DNA from: Syntrophomonadaceae bacterium
GTDB taxonomy: Bacteria; Bacillota; Dethiobacteria; DTU022
Direction of reading: 5' to 3'
Length of the DNA stretch: 32,029 nucleotides
Assembly (NCBI GenBank): GCA_003567725.1
Contig: PWYU01000097.1
Location: 1-32,029, forward strand
Positions 5,011 through 28,528 of this stretch are shown piece after piece. The position numbers were made by a program, and so were the translations under genes. Each line of letters opens with the position of its first letter. Within the stretch, counting starts at the first letter, position 1. Below the pieces are notes generated by a model. It was not told the DNA's origin and searched no databases. It was given only the letters and a program-made list of their open reading frames with translations.

Positions 5011-6225
5011 CTAGAAGCTGCCGGCCATGTCAGCCAGTTCTAAAGATTCCAGGTAATAAGACATTACCTCAACCTCATCGAGATTATATTTTTCAGCTGC
5101 AATAGAAAAAGCTTTATCCCACTGACCCTGTTCATAAAAAAGGACCATCTGGAGGATATCCCTGAAAGGGCCGGATTCGCTAATAAGGACATTTTTTATT
5201 TCATCAGCCAGAGGTAAATCATTAAGAATATTTTCCATAGGCTGATCAAGGAAAGTGTCTAAAAGAGAAAACAGGCCGGCAAGAAAAAGGTCGGCTTTTC
5301 TGTCTTGTAAATCTGTAACTTCAGCCATCAATTCACAAAACTTACCTCTGGCAATCGCAGTTACAATCAGTTCATCAGGTTTGTCATAGCCAACATTACG
5401 TAAAGCAACCAGAGAAGCCCATTTGATAATCTCTTTTTGACCCAGCAAAGCCATAGCCTGGCGTATAGAATGAATGGGAAATCGGACGGGAACAGCGATG
5501 GAGTTAATAAAACGTAATAGTTTGTAAGAAAGCGATGGATCTTGCTTGATCAAAGCTTCCACCTGATCAAAATCCATCTCAGGCTTATAGATTTCCTGTA
5601 ACAACCGCAGGTTTTGTAATTTAGTACCAGGTATTTCTTTTCCGGTTATTACAGTTGGTTCACAGAAAAAGAATCCCTGGAAATAATCATAACCATTAAC
5701 CATGGCATCTCCATAGTCATGCACAGTTTCCACTTTTTCAGCGATTAGTTTCTTTCTGCTTCCCTGGAAATAGTTAATAATTTTTTCCCGCTGTACTGTT
5801 TCTGTCTCCTGGTAATCAATTTTTACAAAATCAACATAGTTTAATAAATCTGTATCACCGGCGTGGTGATTGTAATCATCAAGGACCAGTTTATAACCTT
5901 TCTTATGGAGGTTCTTACAGGCAGCAATTGCATTGTGGTCGGAACCAATATCTTCGGTTATTTCTATGGCTACATAGTCTTTAGGCAGCAAAAGTGCGGT
6001 TTCATTATTTAGCAGCTGATTGCTAAAATTGATAAAAGCTCTTTTCCTCCTGGTTAGTTTATCAAGCCCTAAGGCCAGAAAGCTATTAGCTATTACTTCA
6101 GAAGTAGCCAGGTTGCCGTTAATCTCTGGATTGTAGTTTTCTTCACCGGAACGGTAAAGCAGTTCATAAGCATAGACCTTTTGCTGCCTGTCAAAAATCG
6201 GCTGCCTGGCTACATAGATTCTCAT
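5011..6225 (-). CDS. EAL-HDOD signalling protein (YuxH-like), possible c-di-GMP phosphodiesterase
   Basis: This 404-residue cytoplasmic protein has an N-terminal EAL domain (about 1-195) and a C-terminal HDOD domain (about 200-400). The EAL motif reads YELLYR. The catalytic set seen in active EAL enzymes appears conserved: E21, N66, E88 and E91 (EITE), D116-D117, K135, E163 and Q183 (FQGF). The loop after DD is degenerate (DDYNHH instead of DDFGTG). YuxH-type proteins are often regarded as signalling modules without proven activity, so hydrolysis of c-di-GMP is possible but unproven. The start ATG has GGGGAGG upstream. It is the last gene of the fla/che cluster, 133 bases after the FlhB-like gene, and would complement the PilZ protein encoded upstream in the same cluster. 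Confidence 0.88.
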   Translation of the reverse strand: MRIYVARQPIFDRQQKVYAYELLYRSGEENYNPEINGNLATSEVIANSFLALGLDKLTRRKRAFINFSNQLLNNETALLLPKDYVAIEITEDIGSDHNAIAACKNLHKKGYKLVLDDYNHHAGDTDLLNYVDFVKIDYQETETVQREKIINYFQGSRKKLIAEKVETVHDYGDAMVNGYDYFQGFFFCEPTVITGKEIPGTKLQNLRLLQEIYKPEMDFDQVEALIKQDPSLSYKLLRFINSIAVPVRFPIHSIRQAMALLGQKEIIKWASLVALRNVGYDKPDELIVTAIARGKFCELMAEVTDLQDRKADLFLAGLFSLLDTFLDQPMENILNDLPLADEIKNVLISESGPFRDILQMVLFYEQGQWDKAFSIAAEKYNLDEVEVMSYYLESLELADMAGSF

Positions 6226-6358: not shown

Positions 6359-6652
6359 TCAACCAGATCTATTTCGCTGATCAGCTTCCAAAATAAAAGC
6401 ATAGATAGCCGCAACTGCTTCATAAAGTTCCCGGGGAACTTCTTCTCCCAGGGTAAGATTGTTCAAAACTTTAACCAGCGCGTTATCTTCAACTATTGGA
6501 ACCCGGTTATCCTTAGCCAGGGCAATAATGCGCTCGGCAAGCCAACCCCGGCCGCTGGCAGCGATTGTGGGAGCCTGCTTTTTATCCGGATCATAATGCA
6601 AAGCTACAGCTCTACGGATATGATTGATTTTTTTGTGGTTTTCATCACCCAT
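6359..6652 (-). CDS. FlhB C-terminal-domain paralogue (FlhX/YlqH-like)
   Basis: This 97-residue protein matches only the cytoplasmic C-terminal domain of the export switch protein FlhB. The shared parts are AVALHYDP, LAERIIALAKDNRVPIVED and LGEEVPRELYEAVAAIYAFI. It has no membrane segments and no NPTH autocleavage motif, because it starts just at that point. Free FlhB-C paralogues (FlhX, B. subtilis YlqH) can partly replace the cleaved FlhB C-domain in other species. The ATG is preceded by AAGGAG at long spacing, 17 bases after the stop of the YlqG-like gene. Its presence matters because the full-length FlhB in this cluster has an altered cleavage motif. Confidence 0.85.
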   Translation of the reverse strand: MGDENHKKINHIRRAVALHYDPDKKQAPTIAASGRGWLAERIIALAKDNRVPIVEDNALVKVLNNLTLGEEVPRELYEAVAAIYAFILEADQRNRSG

Positions 6653-6669: not shown

Positions 6670-7374
6670 TCAGGCTTTTTTGTTCAGATTGATGCCTCCA
6701 TCATGCAAAGCTTCAGTGGCCATTCGGCGTAAATTACCAACCGACCACTGCAAGGCCCGGCCTTGTTTTTGTTCTCCCCAAGCTTCATTTACAAGGCGTT
6801 CCGCCTCTCGTTGGAGAGCTTCTCCAAAAGCTTTGGATTCTACTACAAATTGGCACTCAAGCTTTTCACTGCCGGGATGGAAATAAAAACGAACCATCAT
6901 CAGCCCAAAATTATCTGTATCAATAAAAATTTCCAGTAAAGGTTCAGAAGCTGTTTTATGGGCCTGCTCCTTTTGGCCCCGGGGCAAAAAACGCACTAAA
7001 GCCGGCACGTTGCCAGCCTTGTTAAGCACACCGGGCATTATAGCAAACAAAAAGGGCTCTGTTTGATCACTACGGGCATTAGTGGAAGGTATTTCTGGCC
7101 GGCCCGAAAAACGAGTCATAATCTTGTAATGAGGGCGAGATTCCCTGGTGCCATTATACTTTAATAACAGCACTTCTCCGGGCTCAACTTTGGCATTTAA
7201 AATAGAACTGAAACTTCCACCTTCCCAGCGTAAAACTGCCGCATCCCCTTTTTGGGTGGTTACTTTTGCCACCACCGTTTCCGGTATTGCAGCTCCCGGT
7301 TTGCCTGTTTTCTTCGTCGCCAGGCGGCTTATGACCGGATCTCGAAATAAGGCGTTTAAAAAACCGCTTTCCAA
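6670..7374 (-). CDS. Hypothetical protein, YlqG/FliK-like by position and C-terminal pattern
   Basis: This 234-residue protein begins TTG at 7374 with GGAGGG six bases upstream. There is no signal peptide or membrane segment. The N-terminal half is a basic, beta-rich segment (VVAKVTTQKGDAAVLRWEGG, then EVLLLKYNG). The C-terminal third reads FGLMMVRFYFHP followed by LECQFVVESKAFGEALQREA, recalling the FliK C-domain pattern in which the protein contacts FlhB. It sits directly before the FlhB-C paralogue, just as B. subtilis ylqG precedes ylqH. I infer a hook-length or export-related role; the similarity is weak and a specific function is not proven. Confidence 0.55.
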   Translation of the reverse strand: MESGFLNALFRDPVISRLATKKTGKPGAAIPETVVAKVTTQKGDAAVLRWEGGSFSSILNAKVEPGEVLLLKYNGTRESRPHYKIMTRFSGRPEIPSTNARSDQTEPFLFAIMPGVLNKAGNVPALVRFLPRGQKEQAHKTASEPLLEIFIDTDNFGLMMVRFYFHPGSEKLECQFVVESKAFGEALQREAERLVNEAWGEQKQGRALQWSVGNLRRMATEALHDGGINLNKKA

Positions 7375-8259: not shown

Positions 8260-9051
8260 TTAACCTATTTTTTTATAGATTGAAGGAATCAAGCGCTCCA
8301 GGTTAAAACGTTCCGGTTTATTTATAAACTCGGCACAACCAATGATAAAATAACCCCCGGGAGCAACAAGTTTGGCAACTTGTTCAACAATCCATTCCTG
8401 AACATCTGTCTTGAAATATATAAAAACATTACGGCATAAAATCAGCTGCATGGGCGATAAACTTTTATAAAGTGCGCTTTCTAACAAATTGTGTTTTTTG
8501 AAAGTAACTGCCTTTTTATAAGCGGGATCCAGAAGGTAAAACCCATTCTGGGCAGTGAAAGCTGTTTTCAAGATATCTTTAGGAACTTTTTCCAGTTGAT
8601 TGCGGCTGTATTTGCCTTCCCTGGCCATATCAAGGGCCTTATCATCTATATCACTGGCCATTATTTCAGCCCGCTGTAAAGAGGATAGGCTGTGAAGCAT
8701 AAGCGCAATAGAGTAAGGTTCTTCTCCATGAGAGCAACCCATACTCCATATTTTAAGGCGGTTAAAGTTTTGTAAAAGGTCCGGCAATACCCTGTCCTGA
8801 AGGTAATCATAAATTTTGATATCTCGATAGAAAACAGAGGTATTAATAGTTAAGTAATTATAGAATTTATGCAAAAGATCATCATTTACCTTTAAATCAT
8901 TAAAAAAAGAACGCAGGCCATCATATCCTTCACGTTCAATTAACTGACCGATCCTTCTTTCCATCTGCTTATCTTTATATCTTTCAAGATCAAGGCCTGT
9001 TAACTGAAAAAATTCTTTTTTAAACCTGATGAAATCCCAGTTTCCATTCAC
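8260..9051 (-). CDS. cheR: Chemotaxis protein methyltransferase CheR
   Basis: This 263-residue cytoplasmic enzyme methylates glutamates on chemoreceptors using S-adenosylmethionine. An N-terminal helical domain (about 1-75) contains the TINTSVFYRD segment, and the SAM fold follows with IWSMGCSHGEEPYSIALML. ASDIDDKALDMAREGKYS and LILCRNVFIYF complete the CheR pattern. The usual GCSTGEE reads GCSHGEE here, a mild change. The GTG start at 9051 has AGGAGA upstream. It follows cheB by 38 bases, pairing methylation with demethylation in one transcript. No chemoreceptor gene is present in the window. Confidence 0.95.
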   Translation of the reverse strand: MNGNWDFIRFKKEFFQLTGLDLERYKDKQMERRIGQLIEREGYDGLRSFFNDLKVNDDLLHKFYNYLTINTSVFYRDIKIYDYLQDRVLPDLLQNFNRLKIWSMGCSHGEEPYSIALMLHSLSSLQRAEIMASDIDDKALDMAREGKYSRNQLEKVPKDILKTAFTAQNGFYLLDPAYKKAVTFKKHNLLESALYKSLSPMQLILCRNVFIYFKTDVQEWIVEQVAKLVAPGGYFIIGCAEFINKPERFNLERLIPSIYKKIG

Positions 9052-9089: not shown

Positions 9090-10160
9090 TTATTGTTTGC
9101 TAAATAAACGAGTATGACGTTCAATTTCCGCCGCTATTCTTTCAACTGGAAGCTGGATATCACTTAATCCATCTTTCTGCAATGCTGAAGGCATGCTGGG
9201 AATTAGTGCTGTAGAGGGGTCCTGGATAATAACAACTGTATCTTTTTTCTTTTGTTTCAATACTTTAGTCCCCGCAGCACCATCTTTACCCATACCGGTC
9301 ATTATGACTACAACAACACTGTGTTCACAATCAACCAATGACTCCAGCATAACATCGATAGAAGGCCGGACATAATTAACCCTGGGACCGGAATCAAGTG
9401 CTACGGTTTTATTATGCAGCACCAGGTGATAACCACCGGGAGCTACCAGGGCCTGTCCTTTTAACAGCGCATCCCCCTGTTCAGCTTCTTTTACTTTTAA
9501 AGGAGAAAACAAATCCAGGCGCTGGGCAAATGAAAGAGTAAAACCTGGCGGCATATGTTGAGAAAGCATTACTGCAGCCGGCAGATCCGGCGATAAATTT
9601 TTAAATAAAATTTCTAACGCTTTAGGCCCCCCGGTTGAAGCCCCGATAGCGACTATCACCCCGGCTGTTTCTTTACGGCCTGTTCGCAGAGCATACTTTT
9701 TAGCACCATCATGCACAACAGTTTTTTGTGGCGCGATTAAATCAACTTTTGCGGTAGATGCGGCAATTATTTTTTGAGGCAGTACATTTTTTAGTTCTTC
9801 CACCGAATCTTCAAAGGATCCTGAAAGGTTTCGCGAAGGTTTGGAAATAAAGTCTACTGCCCCTGCATCAAGCGCTTTTAAAGTACTTTCGCTGCCCACC
9901 TTGGTATGACTGCTAAGCATGATCACCGGCAGAGGGTTTTCTGCCATTATGTGCCGCACAGTTTCAATCCCATCCATACGCGGCATCTCTAAATCCATCG
10001 TAAGAACATCAGGCTTGTAATCTTTAATTTTTTTTAAAGCATCTACTCCATCTTTAGCTGTTGCAACCACTTCAAGATCAGGGGTTTCACTGATAATATC
10101 ATTAATTATCCGTCGCATAAAAGCAGAATCTTCAACTATCAACACCCGTACAGTTTTCAC
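9090..10160 (-). CDS. cheB: Chemotaxis response regulator / protein-glutamate methylesterase CheB
   Basis: This 356-residue, two-domain enzyme removes methyl groups from receptors and deamidates glutamines. The receiver domain (about 1-125) has E10-D11, phospho-acceptor D56 in LTMDLEMP, and a KPS lysine. The esterase domain (about 165-350) shows the catalytic serine in IGASTGGPKA, the histidine in SQHMPPGF and the aspartate in MTGMGKDGAAG. The start is GTG in a GTGA overlap with the cheD stop, with AAGGAG inside the end of cheD, so translation is coupled. Activity would rise when CheA phosphorylates the receiver domain. Confidence 0.96.
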   Translation of the reverse strand: MKTVRVLIVEDSAFMRRIINDIISETPDLEVVATAKDGVDALKKIKDYKPDVLTMDLEMPRMDGIETVRHIMAENPLPVIMLSSHTKVGSESTLKALDAGAVDFISKPSRNLSGSFEDSVEELKNVLPQKIIAASTAKVDLIAPQKTVVHDGAKKYALRTGRKETAGVIVAIGASTGGPKALEILFKNLSPDLPAAVMLSQHMPPGFTLSFAQRLDLFSPLKVKEAEQGDALLKGQALVAPGGYHLVLHNKTVALDSGPRVNYVRPSIDVMLESLVDCEHSVVVVIMTGMGKDGAAGTKVLKQKKKDTVVIIQDPSTALIPSMPSALQKDGLSDIQLPVERIAAEIERHTRLFSKQ

Positions 10161-10645
10161 TTCTTCATAGCTCCTTTGCCGACTGTAGTGATAGTAACTT
10201 TGCCGGTATCAACAAAAAAGCGCATTGTCCTTCCACAAGAACCGCCTACCTCTTCACTGTCAATCTTGATGCTTTCCTGCTTTAAAACAGAGCGAACCGC
10301 TTCAATATTTTTTTTGCCAACATTACCTGAATCATTTTGGAAATTAAATAAGCTTGCCCCTCCGGCAAGCCGGGCTCTAATATTATTTTTTTTTGCCCCT
10401 GCAGCAATCATCTGCTCAATTAAGTGAGGAACTGCTGTATCGGCAAATTTGGCCGGGTTAACACTATTGGAGCTGGGCCGGTTAAATTTTGAACTGTCAT
10501 TTAAAAGAATGTGAGCCAGCCCACCTATTTTAGACTGTTGATCGTACAGGGCAACGCCTACACAGGAACCCAGGCCAAAGGTAACCAGCACTCCCGCATT
10601 CTTAATTACAGCCATATCGGCAATTTTAACATGCACTGTCTCCAT
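10157..10645 (-). CDS. cheD: Chemoreceptor glutamine deamidase CheD
   Basis: This 162-residue protein deamidates receptor glutamines and, in Bacillus and Thermotoga, binds and stimulates CheC. The catalytic residues are visible: T22, C28 in FGLGSCVGVALYD, and H45 in GGLAHILL. ARLAGGASLF follows as in the family. The ATG at 10645 is preceded by GGAGG. It lies 54 bases after cheY and overlaps cheB. No stand-alone CheC is in the window, so its CheC-type partner could be the double-CheC FliY encoded just upstream, or a CheC gene elsewhere. Confidence 0.95.
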   Translation of the reverse strand: METVHVKIADMAVIKNAGVLVTFGLGSCVGVALYDQQSKIGGLAHILLNDSSKFNRPSSNSVNPAKFADTAVPHLIEQMIAAGAKKNNIRARLAGGASLFNFQNDSGNVGKKNIEAVRSVLKQESIKIDSEEVGGSCGRTMRFFVDTGKVTITTVGKGAMKK

Positions 10646-10699: not shown

Positions 10700-11065
10700 T
10701 TAGTTTTCCAGCTTGGTCAGGGCTTCAGCAATGCGATCCGGCTGGAACGGTTTTACCACAAAGTCTTTGGCTCCGGCATTTAGAGCTTCTATAACAAGGC
10801 TTTTTTGACCCATAGCACTTACAACGACAACTGTTGCATTAGAATCATAGCTCATTATTTCTTTAATCGCTGTAATGCCATCCATATTAGGCATGGTAAT
10901 ATCCATGGTAACTAAGGACGGTTTTAACTCTTTATAGAGATCCACCCCTTTTTGTCCATCTTCCCCTTCTCCAACAACCTCATAACCGTTTTTTTCAAGC
11001 ATATTTTTCAAAGTCATCCTCATGAAAGCAGTATCATCAACAACCAGCACCGTTTTACTCAACAT
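10700..11065 (-). CDS. cheY: Chemotaxis response regulator CheY
   Basis: This 121-residue single receiver domain carries the switch signal from CheA to the flagellar motor. It has D10-D11, phospho-acceptor D55 (LVTMDITMPNMDG), the conserved serine in VVVVSAMG and the lysine in FVVKPFQP. The ATG at 11065 is chosen over a GTG 15 bases upstream because AGGGAGG sits correctly in front of it, inside the end of cheA. The two genes overlap by 11 bases and are probably translationally coupled. FliM and FliN in this cluster both carry EIDSL/EMDAL-type N-terminal peptides that could bind its phosphorylated form. Confidence 0.95.
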   Translation of the reverse strand: MLSKTVLVVDDTAFMRMTLKNMLEKNGYEVVGEGEDGQKGVDLYKELKPSLVTMDITMPNMDGITAIKEIMSYDSNATVVVVSAMGQKSLVIEALNAGAKDFVVKPFQPDRIAEALTKLEN

Positions 11066-13202
11066 AATCCCTCCCTTCACTTAAAAGGCCGGCAACATCT
11101 ATAATTAAAGTAACACTACCGTCACCAAGCACCGTTGCACCGGCAATTCCTTTTAACCCCCTGATTATTTCACCGAGAGATTTGATCATTATTTCCTGCT
11201 GCCCAATTAAATCATCAACTATAAATCCCGCTTTGCGCCCTGCAGCTTCGACAATAACTACCGAAGATTCACTTTCAGGCAAGTCACCGCTTTCAAAGCC
11301 TAACATACTGCTTAAAAAATAAAGCGGGATCACTTCCCCTCTGAGGTTAACTACAGGGTTGCCACGTATAGTTTTTATTTCCCGCCGATCAAGATATACA
11401 TTCTCATGAATCACTTCTACCGGTATGGCATACAGCTGGTGCATTGATTTGACCAGCAAAGTGGTAATGATTGCCAGAGTAAGCGGCAGGCGTATTTCAA
11501 AACGAGTCATAAAACCAATTTCACTGGCCACTTCCACCGTCCCGTGCAAGGCTTCTATACTGTTTCTTACTGCATCCATTCCTACCCCGCGCCCTGAAAC
11601 ATCGGTAACTTCTTCAGAAGTGCTGAAACCGCTGAAAAATATCAGGCTGACCAGGTCATCATTACTTAACTGGGAATATTCTTCCTCCGTAATCAAACCT
11701 TTTTGAATAGCTATTCTTCCTATTTTCTGAGGATCAATACCGCCTCCGTCATCTTCAACCGTAATAACCACCTGGTTGCCTTCATGACAGGCCTTCAAAT
11801 AGATAGACCCTTCAGGGTTTTTACCTTTTCTGGTTCTTTCTTCCGGAGATTCAATCCCATGATCAAAAGCATTGCGCAGCAGGTGAACCAGCGGATCGGA
11901 AAGCCGGTTAATTATTGATCGATCCAGTTCTGTTTCTTCGCCGCTAATATGGAGTTGAACCTTTTTACCTTTTTCACGGCACAGATCACGCACCATACGC
12001 GGAAACCTTCCAAAAGCATGCCCAATCGGCACCATCCGCAGCTCCATAGCTGTAACATGAAGATTGGTTATCGACCCTTTTAATTGATCTATGGTGCTAT
12101 CCAGATCGTCATTAAAACCGTGGCCAATTTCAGAGATCCTGGTCCTTGCCACAACCATTTCGCCAACCAGGTTTACCAGATCATCAAGTTTCTGAGTTTC
12201 AACCCTGACCATTTTATCAGCAGCCTTATTAGTTTCACTGGCCTTTTCTTCTTTAGTGGAGGGCTGCTCTTTAGTTTCAACATGTTCAGTATTTTTTCCT
12301 GCCTCTTGCTCCGGCTTTTTCACATTATCCCCGGAAATAAAAGTTTCCGTAACTTCCCGCTCCCGGGCTTCAACCGGGGTGATTGAGTCTTTTTCGGGCA
12401 AAACTGCCGGCTCTGGTTCAGCCTCTCCTACGGCTTCATCGGCAGCCTGCCAGGGCCCCAGCTCAATTTCTTCCACATCAGTTATCTGGCTCAATTTAGC
12501 CTGCACTGCTTCCTGGCTGCAATTGTTAGGAACAAAAAGGACTTGAAACTCTAAAGCGAAATTTTCTTCTTCCAAATCCTGCTGAGAGGGGATTGAAACT
12601 ATTACTTCACCACACTCTTCTAAAGCTTTAAAAATCATGTAGATCCGGACTGATTTCATTACAACATTTTCTTTCAAAACGATTCTAACCAGGCAAGGAC
12701 TGTCTCCCCTTTCTAAGGCCTGGCGCAGGATTTCCTGATCCATCACCCCGAGATCAAAAACTGCAGCTTGCCCGGTTTCATTTTGCTCACAGCTATAGTC
12801 ATCCTCTACGTCAGTATCCTGTTTATCACGGGCCTTGTTCATTTCAAAAATTAAATTGCCCCATTTTTTTTCATCTTCCTCATTGTTTACTTCCGGGTTT
12901 TCCAGCGAGTCCTGAAGCAGATCAACTGCTTCAAAAAGCAGATCTACAATCTCCGGGCTTGGCTCCCTGTCAAAAGTTTTAAAATCTTCCATGAAGTTTT
13001 CCAGCCCATGGGCAATAGTGGTGACGTGATTATAACCCATAGTCCCGGCCATGCCTTTAAGGCTGTGTACTGCCCGAAATGCTTCTTTTAGCTGCTCAGT
13101 ATCCCGTGGGTTTTCTTCCAGCTTTAAAAGGCACTGATTTAGGATCTGCATGTATTCCCCGGCTTCTGCCTGAAACAGTTCTGCATACTGCCTGACATCC
13201 AT
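11055..13202 (-). CDS. cheA: Chemotaxis histidine kinase CheA
   Basis: This 715-residue cytoplasmic kinase autophosphorylates in response to receptors and passes phosphate to CheY and CheB. Domains in order are HPt P1 with H46 in AFRAVHSLKGMAG, a P2-like region (about 170-255), an acidic linker of about 80 residues rich in E, K and T, a dimerisation helix pair beginning RVETQKLDDLVNLVGEMVV, the ATPase and a CheW-like P5 domain. The ATPase has its N box in LLRNAFDHGIE, G1 in VEDDGGGID and G2 in SGRGVGMDAV. All motifs are intact and length is normal. The ATG has GGGAGG upstream. No cheW gene is seen nearby, although CheA needs CheW to couple to receptors. Confidence 0.97.
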   Translation of the reverse strand: MDVRQYAELFQAEAGEYMQILNQCLLKLEENPRDTEQLKEAFRAVHSLKGMAGTMGYNHVTTIAHGLENFMEDFKTFDREPSPEIVDLLFEAVDLLQDSLENPEVNNEEDEKKWGNLIFEMNKARDKQDTDVEDDYSCEQNETGQAAVFDLGVMDQEILRQALERGDSPCLVRIVLKENVVMKSVRIYMIFKALEECGEVIVSIPSQQDLEEENFALEFQVLFVPNNCSQEAVQAKLSQITDVEEIELGPWQAADEAVGEAEPEPAVLPEKDSITPVEAREREVTETFISGDNVKKPEQEAGKNTEHVETKEQPSTKEEKASETNKAADKMVRVETQKLDDLVNLVGEMVVARTRISEIGHGFNDDLDSTIDQLKGSITNLHVTAMELRMVPIGHAFGRFPRMVRDLCREKGKKVQLHISGEETELDRSIINRLSDPLVHLLRNAFDHGIESPEERTRKGKNPEGSIYLKACHEGNQVVITVEDDGGGIDPQKIGRIAIQKGLITEEEYSQLSNDDLVSLIFFSGFSTSEEVTDVSGRGVGMDAVRNSIEALHGTVEVASEIGFMTRFEIRLPLTLAIITTLLVKSMHQLYAIPVEVIHENVYLDRREIKTIRGNPVVNLRGEVIPLYFLSSMLGFESGDLPESESSVVIVEAAGRKAGFIVDDLIGQQEIMIKSLGEIIRGLKGIAGATVLGDGSVTLIIDVAGLLSEGRDYVE

Positions 13203-13235: not shown

Positions 13236-14993
13236 TTAAAGATCATAACTGTCTATAACTTCCTCGAATTGTATTTCAGTTATCTTAATGCCCAGCTGAT
13301 CGTTAATCATAACAACTTCGCCTTTGGCCAGCAGCTTGTTATTGGCCATCAATTCAACCTGATCATGAACGTTACAGTCAAGATCAACAATACCGCCTTT
13401 ATCCAGGGAAAACAATTTGCCCAGAGAAATCCTGGCTTTCCCAAGGACGACCTCAATATCCATCGGTATATCCTTAATCAGCTCCAGTTTCTGCAGATCA
13501 ATACCATAGCTTGAGTCCGACTTTGGTGCCGGTCTTGAAGCAGGTTCTTTTTCTTTCTGCTGCGAATCAATCACTGCCTCTTCTAGATCTGCGGCATATT
13601 CTAAATCAGGCATATTATCAAACGGATCCACAGCAGGTTGAGCTTCAGAAAGGGCCTCCCCTTCCTGCTGGCCGTAAAGGAGATCTTGCGCCATTTTTTT
13701 TGCAAATTCAACAGGAATAATTTGAATCATAACGCTATCAATTAAATCTTCCACCTTAATTGAAAATTCGACATGAACCACCTGATCTTCAGGCTTTAAA
13801 CCCGATAACTGCGAGTGTTCGCTGGAAAGATCAATCTGTTCAATGGTGGGTGGAGTTATATCTATGGTGCGTTGAAACAGCTCTGACATCGAGGTGGCCA
13901 TTGAACCCATCATCTGGTTCATTGCTTCCTGGACAGCGCTGATCGCAATTTCACCCATCGGGCCTTCCATGCTCCCAGGCGACTCACCCATCATCAAGGC
14001 GGAAATAACCAGCGCATCCTGTTCTTTGATCAGCAGGACATTGCTTCCCTCCAAACCTGAAGAATAATCCACTTCCACCAGCAGGCAGGGAAGCGGGTAA
14101 TCTTCCCGGATTTCCTTTATTTTTCGCACTTCAAGATTAGGCGTGGTTATATCTACAGTTTTGTTCAGAAGCACGGATAGAGCTGTTGCAGAAGCGCCTA
14201 GTGAAATATTTCCCACTTCGCCTACTGTGTCCATTTCCAGATCACTTAGCGGACCTGCTGGCCCTGTTTGATCACCGGAATGGATGGCCGCGGTTTCAAT
14301 TGCATCTTTATCCATTTCATCTGCCTGTTCTGCTTGGTGATCAGACCCAGGATCGGCCTCTGGCCCGGTAGTGTTTTCGCCCGGAACAGAGGCCGCTTCT
14401 GGTTCTTCACCCAACAACTGGGCGGCCATCTTTTTGGCAAATTCAAGCGGAATTACCTGAACCATAACACTGTCAATAATCTCTTCTACTTGCATGGAAA
14501 ACTCAACCTGGACAACTTTCGCTACTTCATTTAAGGGCGAAATTTCAGGTTCTTCGTCGCCAAGGTTGATTAAATCAATTTTAGGAGTGGATATTTCAAT
14601 GGTCCTTTGAAAGAGTTCCGACATTGAGGTAGCCATGGATCCCATCATCTGATTCATCGCTTCCTGAACAGCGCTGGTTTCAATTTCATTTAAAGGCCCT
14701 TCTTTGTCATCCGGCGATTCACCCATCATCATGGCAGCGATTTTTACCGCATCCTGCTCTTTTACCAGCAGGACGTTTTTGCCTTCCAGGCCGGAAATAT
14801 ATTCCACTTCCACTACCAGGCAGGGAACGGGATATATTTGCTGCAGATCGGCGCTATCAACAACATCCAGCCGCGGTGTCGTTATATCAACCATTTTATC
14901 AAGAATAGTTGATAAAGCTGTGGCAGATGCGCCCAGAGAAATATTACCTACTTCGGCAATAGTGTCTTTTTCCAGCAAGCTTAATCCTTCCAA
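13236..14993 (-). CDS. fliY: FliY-like switch protein with two tandem CheC phosphatase modules and a SpoA domain
   Basis: This 585-residue protein is much longer than usual FliY (about 380). Two CheC-type modules (about 1-195 and 248-445) are joined by an acidic linker and followed by a second acidic linker and a FliN/SpoA domain (about 505-580). Each module has both CheY-P phosphatase motifs of the form D/S-x3-E-x2-N: D10-E14-N17, S107-E111-N114, D255-E259-N262 and S352-E356-N359. The spacing between copies is a constant 245 residues. Stretches such as MMGSMATSMSELFQRTI are identical, yet codons differ, so the duplication is not recent. The N-terminal FliM-like CheY-binding peptide of Bacillus FliY is absent. 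The TTG start at 14993 has AAGGAGG upstream. It should sit in the C-ring and dephosphorylate CheY-P. Confidence 0.93.
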   Translation of the reverse strand: MEGLSLLEKDTIAEVGNISLGASATALSTILDKMVDITTPRLDVVDSADLQQIYPVPCLVVEVEYISGLEGKNVLLVKEQDAVKIAAMMMGESPDDKEGPLNEIETSAVQEAMNQMMGSMATSMSELFQRTIEISTPKIDLINLGDEEPEISPLNEVAKVVQVEFSMQVEEIIDSVMVQVIPLEFAKKMAAQLLGEEPEAASVPGENTTGPEADPGSDHQAEQADEMDKDAIETAAIHSGDQTGPAGPLSDLEMDTVGEVGNISLGASATALSVLLNKTVDITTPNLEVRKIKEIREDYPLPCLLVEVDYSSGLEGSNVLLIKEQDALVISALMMGESPGSMEGPMGEIAISAVQEAMNQMMGSMATSMSELFQRTIDITPPTIEQIDLSSEHSQLSGLKPEDQVVHVEFSIKVEDLIDSVMIQIIPVEFAKKMAQDLLYGQQEGEALSEAQPAVDPFDNMPDLEYAADLEEAVIDSQQKEKEPASRPAPKSDSSYGIDLQKLELIKDIPMDIEVVLGKARISLGKLFSLDKGGIVDLDCNVHDQVELMANNKLLAKGEVVMINDQLGIKITEIQFEEVIDSYDL

Positions 14994-15004
14994 AATACCC
15001 CTCC

Positions 15005-15379
15005 TTAACGCAAGTTTTCTAATCTTTCTTTAGGATGGATAATGTTTTGCAGGCGAATTCCAAAAACTTCACCGATGGTAATCACTTCACCTTCGGCAAA
15101 AGGTTTGCCATTAACTACCAGATCAACCGGTTCTTCAATCGAATTTTCCAGTTCAATTACCGTTCCAACTGTTAAATTTAACAGCTGCCCGATGGTCCGC
15201 TGAGTTTCGCCAAGGCGCACAGATACTTCAAGGGGAAAATCCAGGACCAACTTAAGCTTCAAATCCATTTTCAATTCATCTTCACGGCTTGAGTTTTGAT
15301 TTAACAGGGCATCCATCTCTTCTTCGGATAAAAGGTCGCGGCTATCGATAGTTATCACCAACTTTTCCATTATGGTCAT
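15005..15379 (-). CDS. fliN: Flagellar switch protein FliN with an N-terminal EMDALL peptide
   Basis: This 124-residue protein has a SpoA domain (about 45-115: LDFPLEVSVRLGETQRTIGQ, then VDLVVNGKPFAEGEVI). It forms part of the C-ring below FliM. Its N-terminus carries LLSEEEMDALLNQ, the short peptide that binds CheY-P in FliM and Bacillus FliY. The gene overlaps fliM by 38 bases; an alternative ATG at 15370 is equally plausible because neither has a strong ribosome site, so translation is probably coupled to fliM. The stop is 11 bases before the FliY start. One of four SpoA-domain proteins in the window. Confidence 0.92.
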   Translation of the reverse strand: MTIMEKLVITIDSRDLLSEEEMDALLNQNSSREDELKMDLKLKLVLDFPLEVSVRLGETQRTIGQLLNLTVGTVIELENSIEEPVDLVVNGKPFAEGEVITIGEVFGIRLQNIIHPKERLENLR

Positions 15380-16343
15380 CTGTCCGGCCGACTATCTTGA
15401 CCGCCAGCCTTTTGCCCCTGGTACCAGGTTGAACTTTAAAGATAGGTTTGTCTTCAATCATTAACTCTAACGCTTCTCCCTTTCGGCGGCGCAGTGGTAA
15501 AACGTCACCTTCCTGCAGCTGCAAGAAATCATCCAGGGTTATCCGGGCATCGCCCAGAACCGCTTTCACTTCCGCTTCAGGAGCCTGCAGGCATTTTTCG
15601 ATGTCACCGGGCTTGTTTTTAGAGGCGGTTTGTTGAAACTGGTTAAACCAGTGCTGGGCGGTCAGGCTTGATAAAACATGCTCCAACCCCATAAAGGGAA
15701 AACAAAGATTAATAAAGCCTTCCACATTCTGGATCGAAGCTGAAAAGGTAACCAGGGCAACCGTTTCACTGGAAGCAATAACCTGGTTGAATTGGGGGTT
15801 GGTATCCATGCTCTCAATCTGCGGATCGATTTGAATAATCCCTTTCCAGGCATAGCCTAAATTATCCAGGAATTTTTCATTAATCTGCCGCATTACTGAT
15901 ATTTCTATTTCGGTCAGTTCCCTGATCTTACCAGGCTGCCGCCCTTCCCCACCAAATAAAAGATCGATAATGGTAAATACAAAGCTAGGGTTTGTTTCAA
16001 GCATGGCAACGCCCATATCTTTAGACATATTAAAGATGGTCATCAATGTAGGGACGGGAAGTGAAAACACAAATTCTTCATATGAAACCTGAGCAACTGA
16101 AACTACCTGCAGCTTAACGGGAACACGTAAAAAGGAAGTTAAAAAATTACCCATAACCCGAGCATAATTCTCATGGATGATCTGCAGAGTCCTGATCTGC
16201 TCCTTTGAAAACTTCGTCGGGCGCCGGAAATCATATGACTGGTAACCTTCAGTTACATCTTCCGGTTCTTCTTTCAAATCCCCGCTGGAGATAGCATTGA
16301 TTAAAGAATCAATTTCTGATTGAGTAAGCGCATCTTTGGCCAT
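15342..16343 (-). CDS. fliM: Flagellar motor switch protein FliM
   Basis: This 333-residue C-ring protein binds CheY-P and sets rotation direction. It has the N-terminal CheY-binding peptide LTQSEIDSLINAI, a CheC-like middle domain (about 40-225, including YEEFVFSLPVPTLM and FGGEGR) and a C-terminal SpoA domain (about 250-325, with VKAVLGDARITLDDFLQLQ). The ATG at 16343 is chosen over a TTG 15 bases upstream because GGGAGG lies seven bases before it. It ends inside the start of fliN. Length and order are normal for the family. Confidence 0.96.
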   Translation of the reverse strand: MAKDALTQSEIDSLINAISSGDLKEEPEDVTEGYQSYDFRRPTKFSKEQIRTLQIIHENYARVMGNFLTSFLRVPVKLQVVSVAQVSYEEFVFSLPVPTLMTIFNMSKDMGVAMLETNPSFVFTIIDLLFGGEGRQPGKIRELTEIEISVMRQINEKFLDNLGYAWKGIIQIDPQIESMDTNPQFNQVIASSETVALVTFSASIQNVEGFINLCFPFMGLEHVLSSLTAQHWFNQFQQTASKNKPGDIEKCLQAPEAEVKAVLGDARITLDDFLQLQEGDVLPLRRRKGEALELMIEDKPIFKVQPGTRGKRLAVKIVGRTDDHNGKVGDNYR

Positions 16344-16387
16344 TATTCCACCTCCCAACTAAACAAACAAAACCTGAAGTAAAGCTG

Positions 16388-18010: not shown

Positions 18011-18466
18011 TTATCCTTTTTTATGAACCAGGCCTTCCTGCATGGAAAGGATCAGCTCAATTTCGCCTTTGCCTCTTCCGGTCCGGGACATTATTTCTGA
18101 TAATGAAAGGCCCTCTTCCCACATTTTTAAAACATGGCTCCGATCAACCTTGCGCTCAACGGAAGATATTTGCCTGACCACACCTCTGCCGGAGCGATTT
18201 GCATTTTCTGCTGGAACAGCTTGGGGCTCTAGAGCACGGGTTTCATTGGCCGGGTATTTTAATGCCCTTTCAGGTTGTTCCAGTTCAGCCATTCTTCTTT
18301 CTACATAATCCAACCTGTTTTTTAAAACCGTCAGGCTGCCCAGCTGGCCGTTTACAACCAGTTCTTTTTGCATAAGCTTTTCAAAAACTGGCACGCCGCT
18401 GAACTGCCGCTGCCAGAACCAGCTCACTGTTACACCTAGCACAAATCCAATAATAAGATAACCCAT
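18011..18466 (-). CDS. SwrB/YlxL-like membrane-anchored protein
   Basis: This 151-residue protein has a single N-terminal membrane helix (about 2-16, YLIIGFVLGVTVSWFW), a short coiled-coil region (about 45-65), a flexible middle and a C-terminal helix-turn-helix-like segment (VLKMWEEGLSLSEIMSRTGRGKGEIELIL). This layout and its place directly after the sigma-D gene match B. subtilis SwrB, which helps the flagellar export gate become active. Overall sequence similarity cannot be judged here, so the call rests on architecture and position. The ATG has AAAGGAGG upstream. The C-terminal HTH may mediate protein contact rather than DNA binding, since the protein is membrane-tethered. Confidence 0.66.
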   Translation of the reverse strand: MGYLIIGFVLGVTVSWFWQRQFSGVPVFEKLMQKELVVNGQLGSLTVLKNRLDYVERRMAELEQPERALKYPANETRALEPQAVPAENANRSGRGVVRQISSVERKVDRSHVLKMWEEGLSLSEIMSRTGRGKGEIELILSMQEGLVHKKG

Positions 18467-27600: not shown

Positions 27601-28014
27601 TTAGCCCTCTTTCCCGGAACCGGGTTCATCTTCATTATCTTCTTCACTAACCAAAGATGTTATCCGGACTCCGAAGCGATCATTAATTACAACAATTTCA
27701 CCATGCGCGAAGGGAGTTTCATTAACCAGGATCATTACTTTTTCATCAGCTACGCGGTTAAGCTTAAGAATAGAGCCTTCTTCAAGGTTAATTAAATCCC
27801 GTACTTTAAGCATTATTTGTCCCAGCTCAGCGCTGATATTTAAGTTAACGCCGTAAAATTCAGGCGCTATGCCCCGCCTGAAAGCTGCTGACCCGCTTTC
27901 ATCCAAAGGCTGAAAGACCACCTTTTTTATAACCGGTTGATCTTGTTCCCCGGTATAGTCGTCATCAGCATAATCAGAAAAAGGCTTCTGTTCTTCCCAA
28001 TAATTGCTTGACAT
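27601..28014 (-). CDS. Second FliN-like SpoA protein between fliL and fliO
   Basis: This 137-residue protein has an acidic N-terminal part (EQKPFSDYADDDYTGEQDQP) and a SpoA domain (about 55-125, with LNISAELGQIMLKVRDLINLEEGSILKLN and VMILVNETPFAHGEIVVINDRFG). The core resembles FliN, and the position between fliL and fliO is where fliM and fliN(Y) often sit. The ATG at 28014 is chosen because AAGGAG lies eight bases upstream. No EIDAL-type peptide is seen. It is the fourth SpoA protein in the cluster and may share or modify the C-ring, or act in export. Confidence 0.88.
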   Translation of the reverse strand: MSSNYWEEQKPFSDYADDDYTGEQDQPVIKKVVFQPLDESGSAAFRRGIAPEFYGVNLNISAELGQIMLKVRDLINLEEGSILKLNRVADEKVMILVNETPFAHGEIVVINDRFGVRITSLVSEEDNEDEPGSGKEG

Positions 28015-28030
28015 TAAAACGGCTCCTTTT

Positions 28031-28528
28031 TTACTGGAAAATAAATTCTTTAAAATATATAGCCCTGACTTTACCAGACTCAAGGCGGTCATTAAGCATA
28101 TCTAAGAGGTCCTGTTCAAGGTTTTTCATCCCACCCGGTTCTTCAAGATCGTCAATGTACTTGCTGCGCAGAACAGCGATAATCTCTGAACGCAGCTCAG
28201 GTTCTCGTTCTTCTATTTCACGGGTCAGTCCCCTGTCATCATAAGCCAGCTCAAAAGTCGTCCGTAAAAATCTCCTCGTCCCTGAATCAGCCAGGTTTAC
28301 CTGGAACTCTGACATAGAGTAGCTGTGACTTGGAAGAGCATCCACTTCTTCTCCATCACCAATTAAATTCCCGATAAAGGGTATATCATCTGCCAAAAAG
28401 AAAAATGCTGCCGCTCCGCCGAGCACCATGAAAGGAACCATGATCAAGATTATTTTTAACAGGGGGCGCCTTTTCTTCTTTTTGGCCTCTTTGTTGTCTG
28501 AACTGGTTTTTGTTTCTTTTTCTGGCAT
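28031..28528 (-). CDS. fliL: Flagellar basal-body-associated protein FliL
   Basis: This 165-residue protein has a basic cytoplasmic start (KEAKKKKRRPLLK), one membrane helix (IILIMVPFMVLGGAAAFFFL) and a periplasmic-side domain with FQVNLADSGTRRFLRTTFELAYDD, the FliL pattern. It supports the stator around the motor. The ATG at 28528 is chosen over a TTG six bases upstream because GGAGG lies 10 bases before the ATG, although the TTG is also possible. It follows motB by 20 bases. Confidence 0.92.
   Translation of the reverse strand: MPEKETKTSSDNKEAKKKKRRPLLKIILIMVPFMVLGGAAAFFFLADDIPFIGNLIGDGEEVDALPSHSYSMSEFQVNLADSGTRRFLRTTFELAYDDRGLTREIEEREPELRSEIIAVLRSKYIDDLEEPGGMKNLEQDLLDMLNDRLESGKVRAIYFKEFIFQ

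Follow-up and report, generated by a model that had tools for sequence, protein, structure and literature searches.

FliY is an established kind of flagellar switch protein. In B. subtilis, CheY-P is bound by the N-terminal LSQXEIDALL peptide of FliY and dephosphorylated by its middle domain (PMC7595845), and the EIDALL motif has been stated to be present in FliM and the FliYs of all motile bacteria (PMC9126983). The usual view of FliY is one of a single docking peptide, a single phosphatase and a single SpoA domain. The FliYs of B. subtilis and T. maritima (NF005995/PRK08119; PDB 4HYN) are flagellar switch gene products with one CheC-type module, which carries two motifs, and a C-terminal SpoA domain. 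A double-CheC FliY is also known already as a curated family, NF005275/PRK06782 (model length, 516 aa), to which the 527-aa FliY of Listeria farberi belongs (845.6; cut-off, 681); it has two CheC modules and one SpoA domain. In that Listeria farberi genome, FliY accounts for all four CheC stretches found, and no stand-alone CheC was detected. Stand-alone CheC (1XKR, 2F9Z) has the same fold and motif pair and is free of SpoA. The activity of B. subtilis CheC is only 6% of that of FliY, and its residue D149 lies at the CheD interface, where a D149K substitution strongly decreases CheD binding and leaves hydrolysis normal (PMC3513319).

The window, that is, the whole 32,029-nucleotide stretch of Syntrophomonadaceae DNA analysed here, contains a fliY gene (13236-14993) for a protein of 585 aa; this gene and all other window features given below lie on the minus strand. 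The start codon is TTG, upstream of which stands AAGGAGGGG, and it is preceded by a good Shine-Dalgarno sequence, AAGGAGGGGTATTTTG. Pfam recognised four CheC stretches (PF04509) and one C-terminal FliMN_C/SpoA domain (PF01052, 6.2e-19; residues 505-574, 13272-13481), a FliN-like C-ring domain of the kind seen in the FliN structures 1O6A/1YAB. The protein scored 551 bits against the FliY model NF005995, whose cut-off is 218. It has three attributes of a FliY, namely paired D/S-x3-E-x2-N motifs within a CheC-type module, a C-terminal SpoA/FliN-like domain and a score above the curated cut-off, and it differs from the B. subtilis and T. maritima proteins in having two such modules and four motifs. 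Like Listeria farberi FliY, it combines two CheC modules with one SpoA domain, but it scored 435.2 bits against NF005275, under the cut-off of 681.

The N module occupies residues about 1-200 (14394-14993) and folds like 4HYN; the C module, delimited by repeat alignment and predicted fold, occupies residues about 249-445 (13659-14249). Between them lies an acidic flexible linker (residues about 201-248; 14250-14393), whose length varies from about 15 residues in one relative (L035) up to about 60 elsewhere. The phosphatase motifs are DTIAEVGN (D10-E14-N17; 14943-14966) and SAVQEAMN (S107-E111-N114; 14652-14675) in the N module, and DTVGEVGN (D255-E259-N262; 14208-14231) and SAVQEAMN (S352-E356-N359; 13917-13940) in the C module. 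A fifth match to the pattern, SSGLEGSN at residue 311, lies outside the expected positions and was taken as chance. The modules repeat without gaps at a period of exactly 245 residues. A sequence-only reading of this DNA had described two complete CheC modules on one SpoA domain, with four intact motifs at that period; Pfam, the motifs and the relatives described below bear this out. An AlphaFold2 model, built on an alignment of seven rows, gave both modules the same helix-strand order and fold (pLDDT about 70-84), left the linker unstructured (residues 196-246, pLDDT near 25-30) and modelled the SpoA domain poorly. The best Foldseek match was T. maritima FliY 4HYN (target TM 0.89), followed by FliM middle domains (about 0.8) and CheC (about 0.73); both modules agree with the fold of the T. 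maritima phosphatase.

The two modules are about 66% identical. Over the repeat alignment, 127 of 207 residues are the same, only 66 of these 127 being written with the same codon; at the DNA level, the copies share 69% identity over 300 nt at a spacing of 735. Synonymous sites are near-saturated (dS about 1.6-2.0), and dN between the modules is 0.26-0.30.

The gene order around fliY is fliM - small fliN - fliY - cheA - cheY - cheD - cheB - cheR. FliM (15342-16358; Pfam, NCBIfam) carries an N-terminal LTQSEIDSLI docking motif, and the small FliN (124 aa; 15005-15379) has an N-terminal docking-type LSEEEMDALL peptide and a SpoA domain, without a CheC module. The two genes share 38 bp (15342-15379), an overlap that suggests translational coupling. 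A second SpoA-only, FliN-like gene, flanked by fliL and fliO, has no docking motif (27601-28092); FliM, the two FliNs and FliY are the four SpoA proteins in the window. Downstream of fliY are cheA (11055-13202; Pfam), a cheY-type receiver gene (10700-11080; PF00072), the product of which is the likely substrate of FliY, cheD (10157-10645; PF03975), cheB (9090-10160; Pfam) and cheR (8260-9051; Pfam).

The window FliY contains no EIDALL-type peptide, which is carried instead by the window's FliM and small FliN. Bacilli FliY has the LSQxEIDALL peptide at its N terminus, whereas Listeria farberi FliY also lacks it and has separate short SpoA proteins nearby. Across the class, the docking motif stood ahead of the first CheC module in 0 of 44 FliYs and was present in 43 of 45 small FliNs, a large contrast, scored with a regular expression that was widened after some of the sequences had been seen. 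We treated the peptide as a trait of the B. subtilis subtype rather than as a requirement for being a FliY. Single-module FliYs of the class are without it as well, and thus loss of the peptide alone does not force duplication.

The same two-module architecture was found in six other genomes, G002 (L007/L032), G008 (L008), G010 (L009), G031 (L010/L033), G064 (L034) and G065 (L035); these are draft genomes from at least three genera, and wherever the record is named, it is a Syntrophomonadaceae MAG. Since the window itself comes from a draft genome of 127 contigs, an assembly-made duplication, raised at the outset as a possible refutation, had to be considered. Because the copies are so divergent, agreeing at only 69% of DNA positions, this explanation fails, and the recurrence of the architecture in the six other drafts also speaks against it; we regard an artefact as scarcely credible.

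Throughout the seven genomes of the window's family, the D-E-N and S-E-N residues are kept at all four sites (7/7). Mean dN across orthologues is 0.209 for N modules and 0.209 for C modules, and omega is about 0.09-0.10 for both, an approximate value as dS is near saturation and often not computable. These equal, constrained rates uphold the proposal, first made from identical protein stretches with different codons, that both copies are under purifying selection. By the criterion used, the N and C sets of the window's family differ consistently at a single position, near the module start, and share identical catalytic residues. Gene conversion between the modules was considered and gave no signal, the N-C identity being 0.669 within a genome and 0.665 between genomes.

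Module trees, proposed earlier as a check, indicated an ancestral duplication, with the N and C modules mostly sorting apart in species order. The 14 modules of the seven genomes formed one clade in two module trees (support 100/98 and 100/97). In the first, the N modules (90/33) and the C modules (96/81) each formed a group, sister to the other and following species order; in the second, the C set was united (94/86) and the N set was split by a short, weak branch. Both sets were clades, with weak support, in the tree used with the AU tests. The simplest reading of these trees is one duplication before the seven genomes diverged and after the split from the single-module genomes G022 and G024, although homogenisation in the common ancestor before that divergence could also have made the 14 modules monophyletic. 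A duplication common to the window's family and the f6 double-module FliYs of the class was rejected by AU tests, both for uniting the N modules (p 3e-7) and for uniting the C modules (p 2e-8). The Listeria module pair grouped apart from the modules of the window's family. In G087 (L130), the two FliY modules were near neighbours, which suggests a recent duplication or gene conversion. These three results show that the duplication arose more than once.

The distribution of extra modules was surveyed in 98 genomes of the class, 48 of which had an assessable FliY once contig-edge fragments were left out. Two or three modules were found in 29 of the 48 and one module in 19; many class members have a single-module FliY plus a small FliN. 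The doubles and triples (L011-L017, L122-L137) share the tandem CheC and SpoA plan and mostly a fliM-fliN-fliY arrangement. Three FliYs, of 805-821 aa, from further genomes of the order (L012:6271-8685, L013:6437-8884 and L014:6398-8860) have three modules and SpoA. The premise that a FliY usually has one module, with its implication of rarity, hence does not hold in this class, and a double-CheC FliY is already curated from Listeria. Whether the architecture might prove common and described in this lineage had also been asked: it is common (29/48), and we found no description of a double- or triple-module FliY in the open literature searched, a weak sign of novelty as most subscription papers lay outside its scope. 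The window FliY is part of a class-wide expansion separate from the curated family NF005275.

In a sample of the phylum outside the class, the FliYs among the matches listed, beyond which lie about ten weaker FliYs, were of single-module length with two exceptions of more than 500 aa. Those two, in G162 (513 aa) and G145 (515 aa), were rejected as multi-module FliYs, each having one module and long linkers. In L142 (G182), the start of FliY and its first motif are in a different reading frame from the remainder, which suggests a frameshift or a sequencing error.

Not all extra modules have kept their motifs. Most f6 doubles, the duplications of which are separate from that of the window's family, retain all four. 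The f5 forms, with up to three modules, have a degenerate N-most module (EES, GEG, SEG), and the N-most module of L012, L013 and L014 is without catalytic residues. In the doubles of G072 and G073 (L136, L137), the C module, not the N module, has lost its motifs (ELR or ELQ with SES). Because of the losses in f5 and in G072/G073, extra modules can evidently become non-catalytic or dispensable.

The sequence-only reading had also offered that one module might bind CheD, which would make FliY a rotor-bound substitute for CheC, and the presence of cheD in the same operon is in keeping with this. The D149 context is LDMFGA in B. spizizenii CheC and IDMAGA in the genome's own CheC, which is encoded on another contig (contig 12 of G000), whereas the corresponding stretch is shortened in the FliY modules. 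A DMxGA segment is present in 14 of the 16 stand-alone CheCs examined but in none of the 78 FliY modules, both window modules included. The window FliY, in addition, carries SpoA, from which the CheD-binding CheCs are free. With the interface segment missing from every FliY module examined and a separate DMAGA-bearing CheC in the same genome, we consider CheD binding by either module very improbable.

As the earlier reading had suggested, the most economical interpretation of two complete, separately conserved modules is that each FliY has twice the usual number of CheY-P phosphatase sites, with the activity itself a prediction from sequence. We propose, with a probability of about 0.6, that a tandem CheC duplication gave both modules as competent CheY-P phosphatases on a FliY held near the switch by SpoA, with docking on FliM and the small FliN. 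The CheC module would have been duplicated in the ancestor of at least the seven genomes of the window's family. One SpoA domain would hold both modules on the rotor through flexible linkers; CheY-P would dock on FliM and the small FliN by way of their EIDALL-type peptides, and the two FliY heads would hydrolyse it near the switch. The number of modules would then set the number of catalytic sites per FliY subunit, and the doubled FliY probably sets the amount of CheY-P removed at the motor. The two heads may compensate for ring positions shared with two CheC-less FliN proteins, and for the docking peptide that FliY itself has lost. We infer catalytic competence of both modules from the motifs, the predicted fold and the constraint, and the ring composition and dosage advantage are likewise inferred. 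The operon, running from fliM through fliY to cheR, fits this account.

Two other explanations take the duplication as real and give the second module a different meaning. Tandem duplication within fliY may simply be frequent in this class and bring no dosage benefit, with the extra module persisting neutrally, or serving as a structural spacer, up to its decay. The repeated duplications, the commonness of single-module relatives across the class and the motif losses in f5 and G072/G073 speak for such carriage, and these losses keep the explanation alive. In the window's family, however, the four motifs have survived in seven genomes past near-saturated synonymous sites, with omega about 0.1 in both modules, and most f6 doubles are likewise intact, so that neutral carriage seems to us unlikely there. 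The alternative of split roles would keep phosphatase activity in one module and leave the other to bind, or act as a scaffold for, a partner such as FliM or FliG; it draws on the FliM middle domain, a structural switch part that shares this fold (target TM, about 0.8), and on the decayed modules retained in relatives as non-catalytic domains. A division of labour sits poorly with equal rates in the two modules, identical catalytic residues and one consistently differing position near the module start, and we hold it to be distinctly improbable.

A class-wide extension can be put forward tentatively, as a possibility rather than an expectation: the classic FliY may have been split, with docking on the small FliN and catalysis on FliY, after which the module was multiplied repeatedly, from one to three, as an evolvable dial for CheY-P turnover, Listeria being an independent parallel. 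The class departs from the usual view in having a FliY without the peptide, a separate FliN with it, and one to three phosphatase modules. It is a natural series in which to ask how switching and adaptation depend on the number of CheY-P phosphatase sites at the motor.

Several other genes of the window were also noted. An EAL and HDOD protein (5011-6225) is encoded close to the chemotaxis operon, a possible link to c-di-GMP. A 234-aa ORF (6670-7374) had no match in NCBIfam or Pfam, and a 151-aa protein (18011-18466), encoded beside the sigma factor gene, gave only weak DUF6115/DUF2802 matches. A 97-aa protein (6359-6652) resembles the C-terminal part of FlhB (TIGR00789, under the cut-off).
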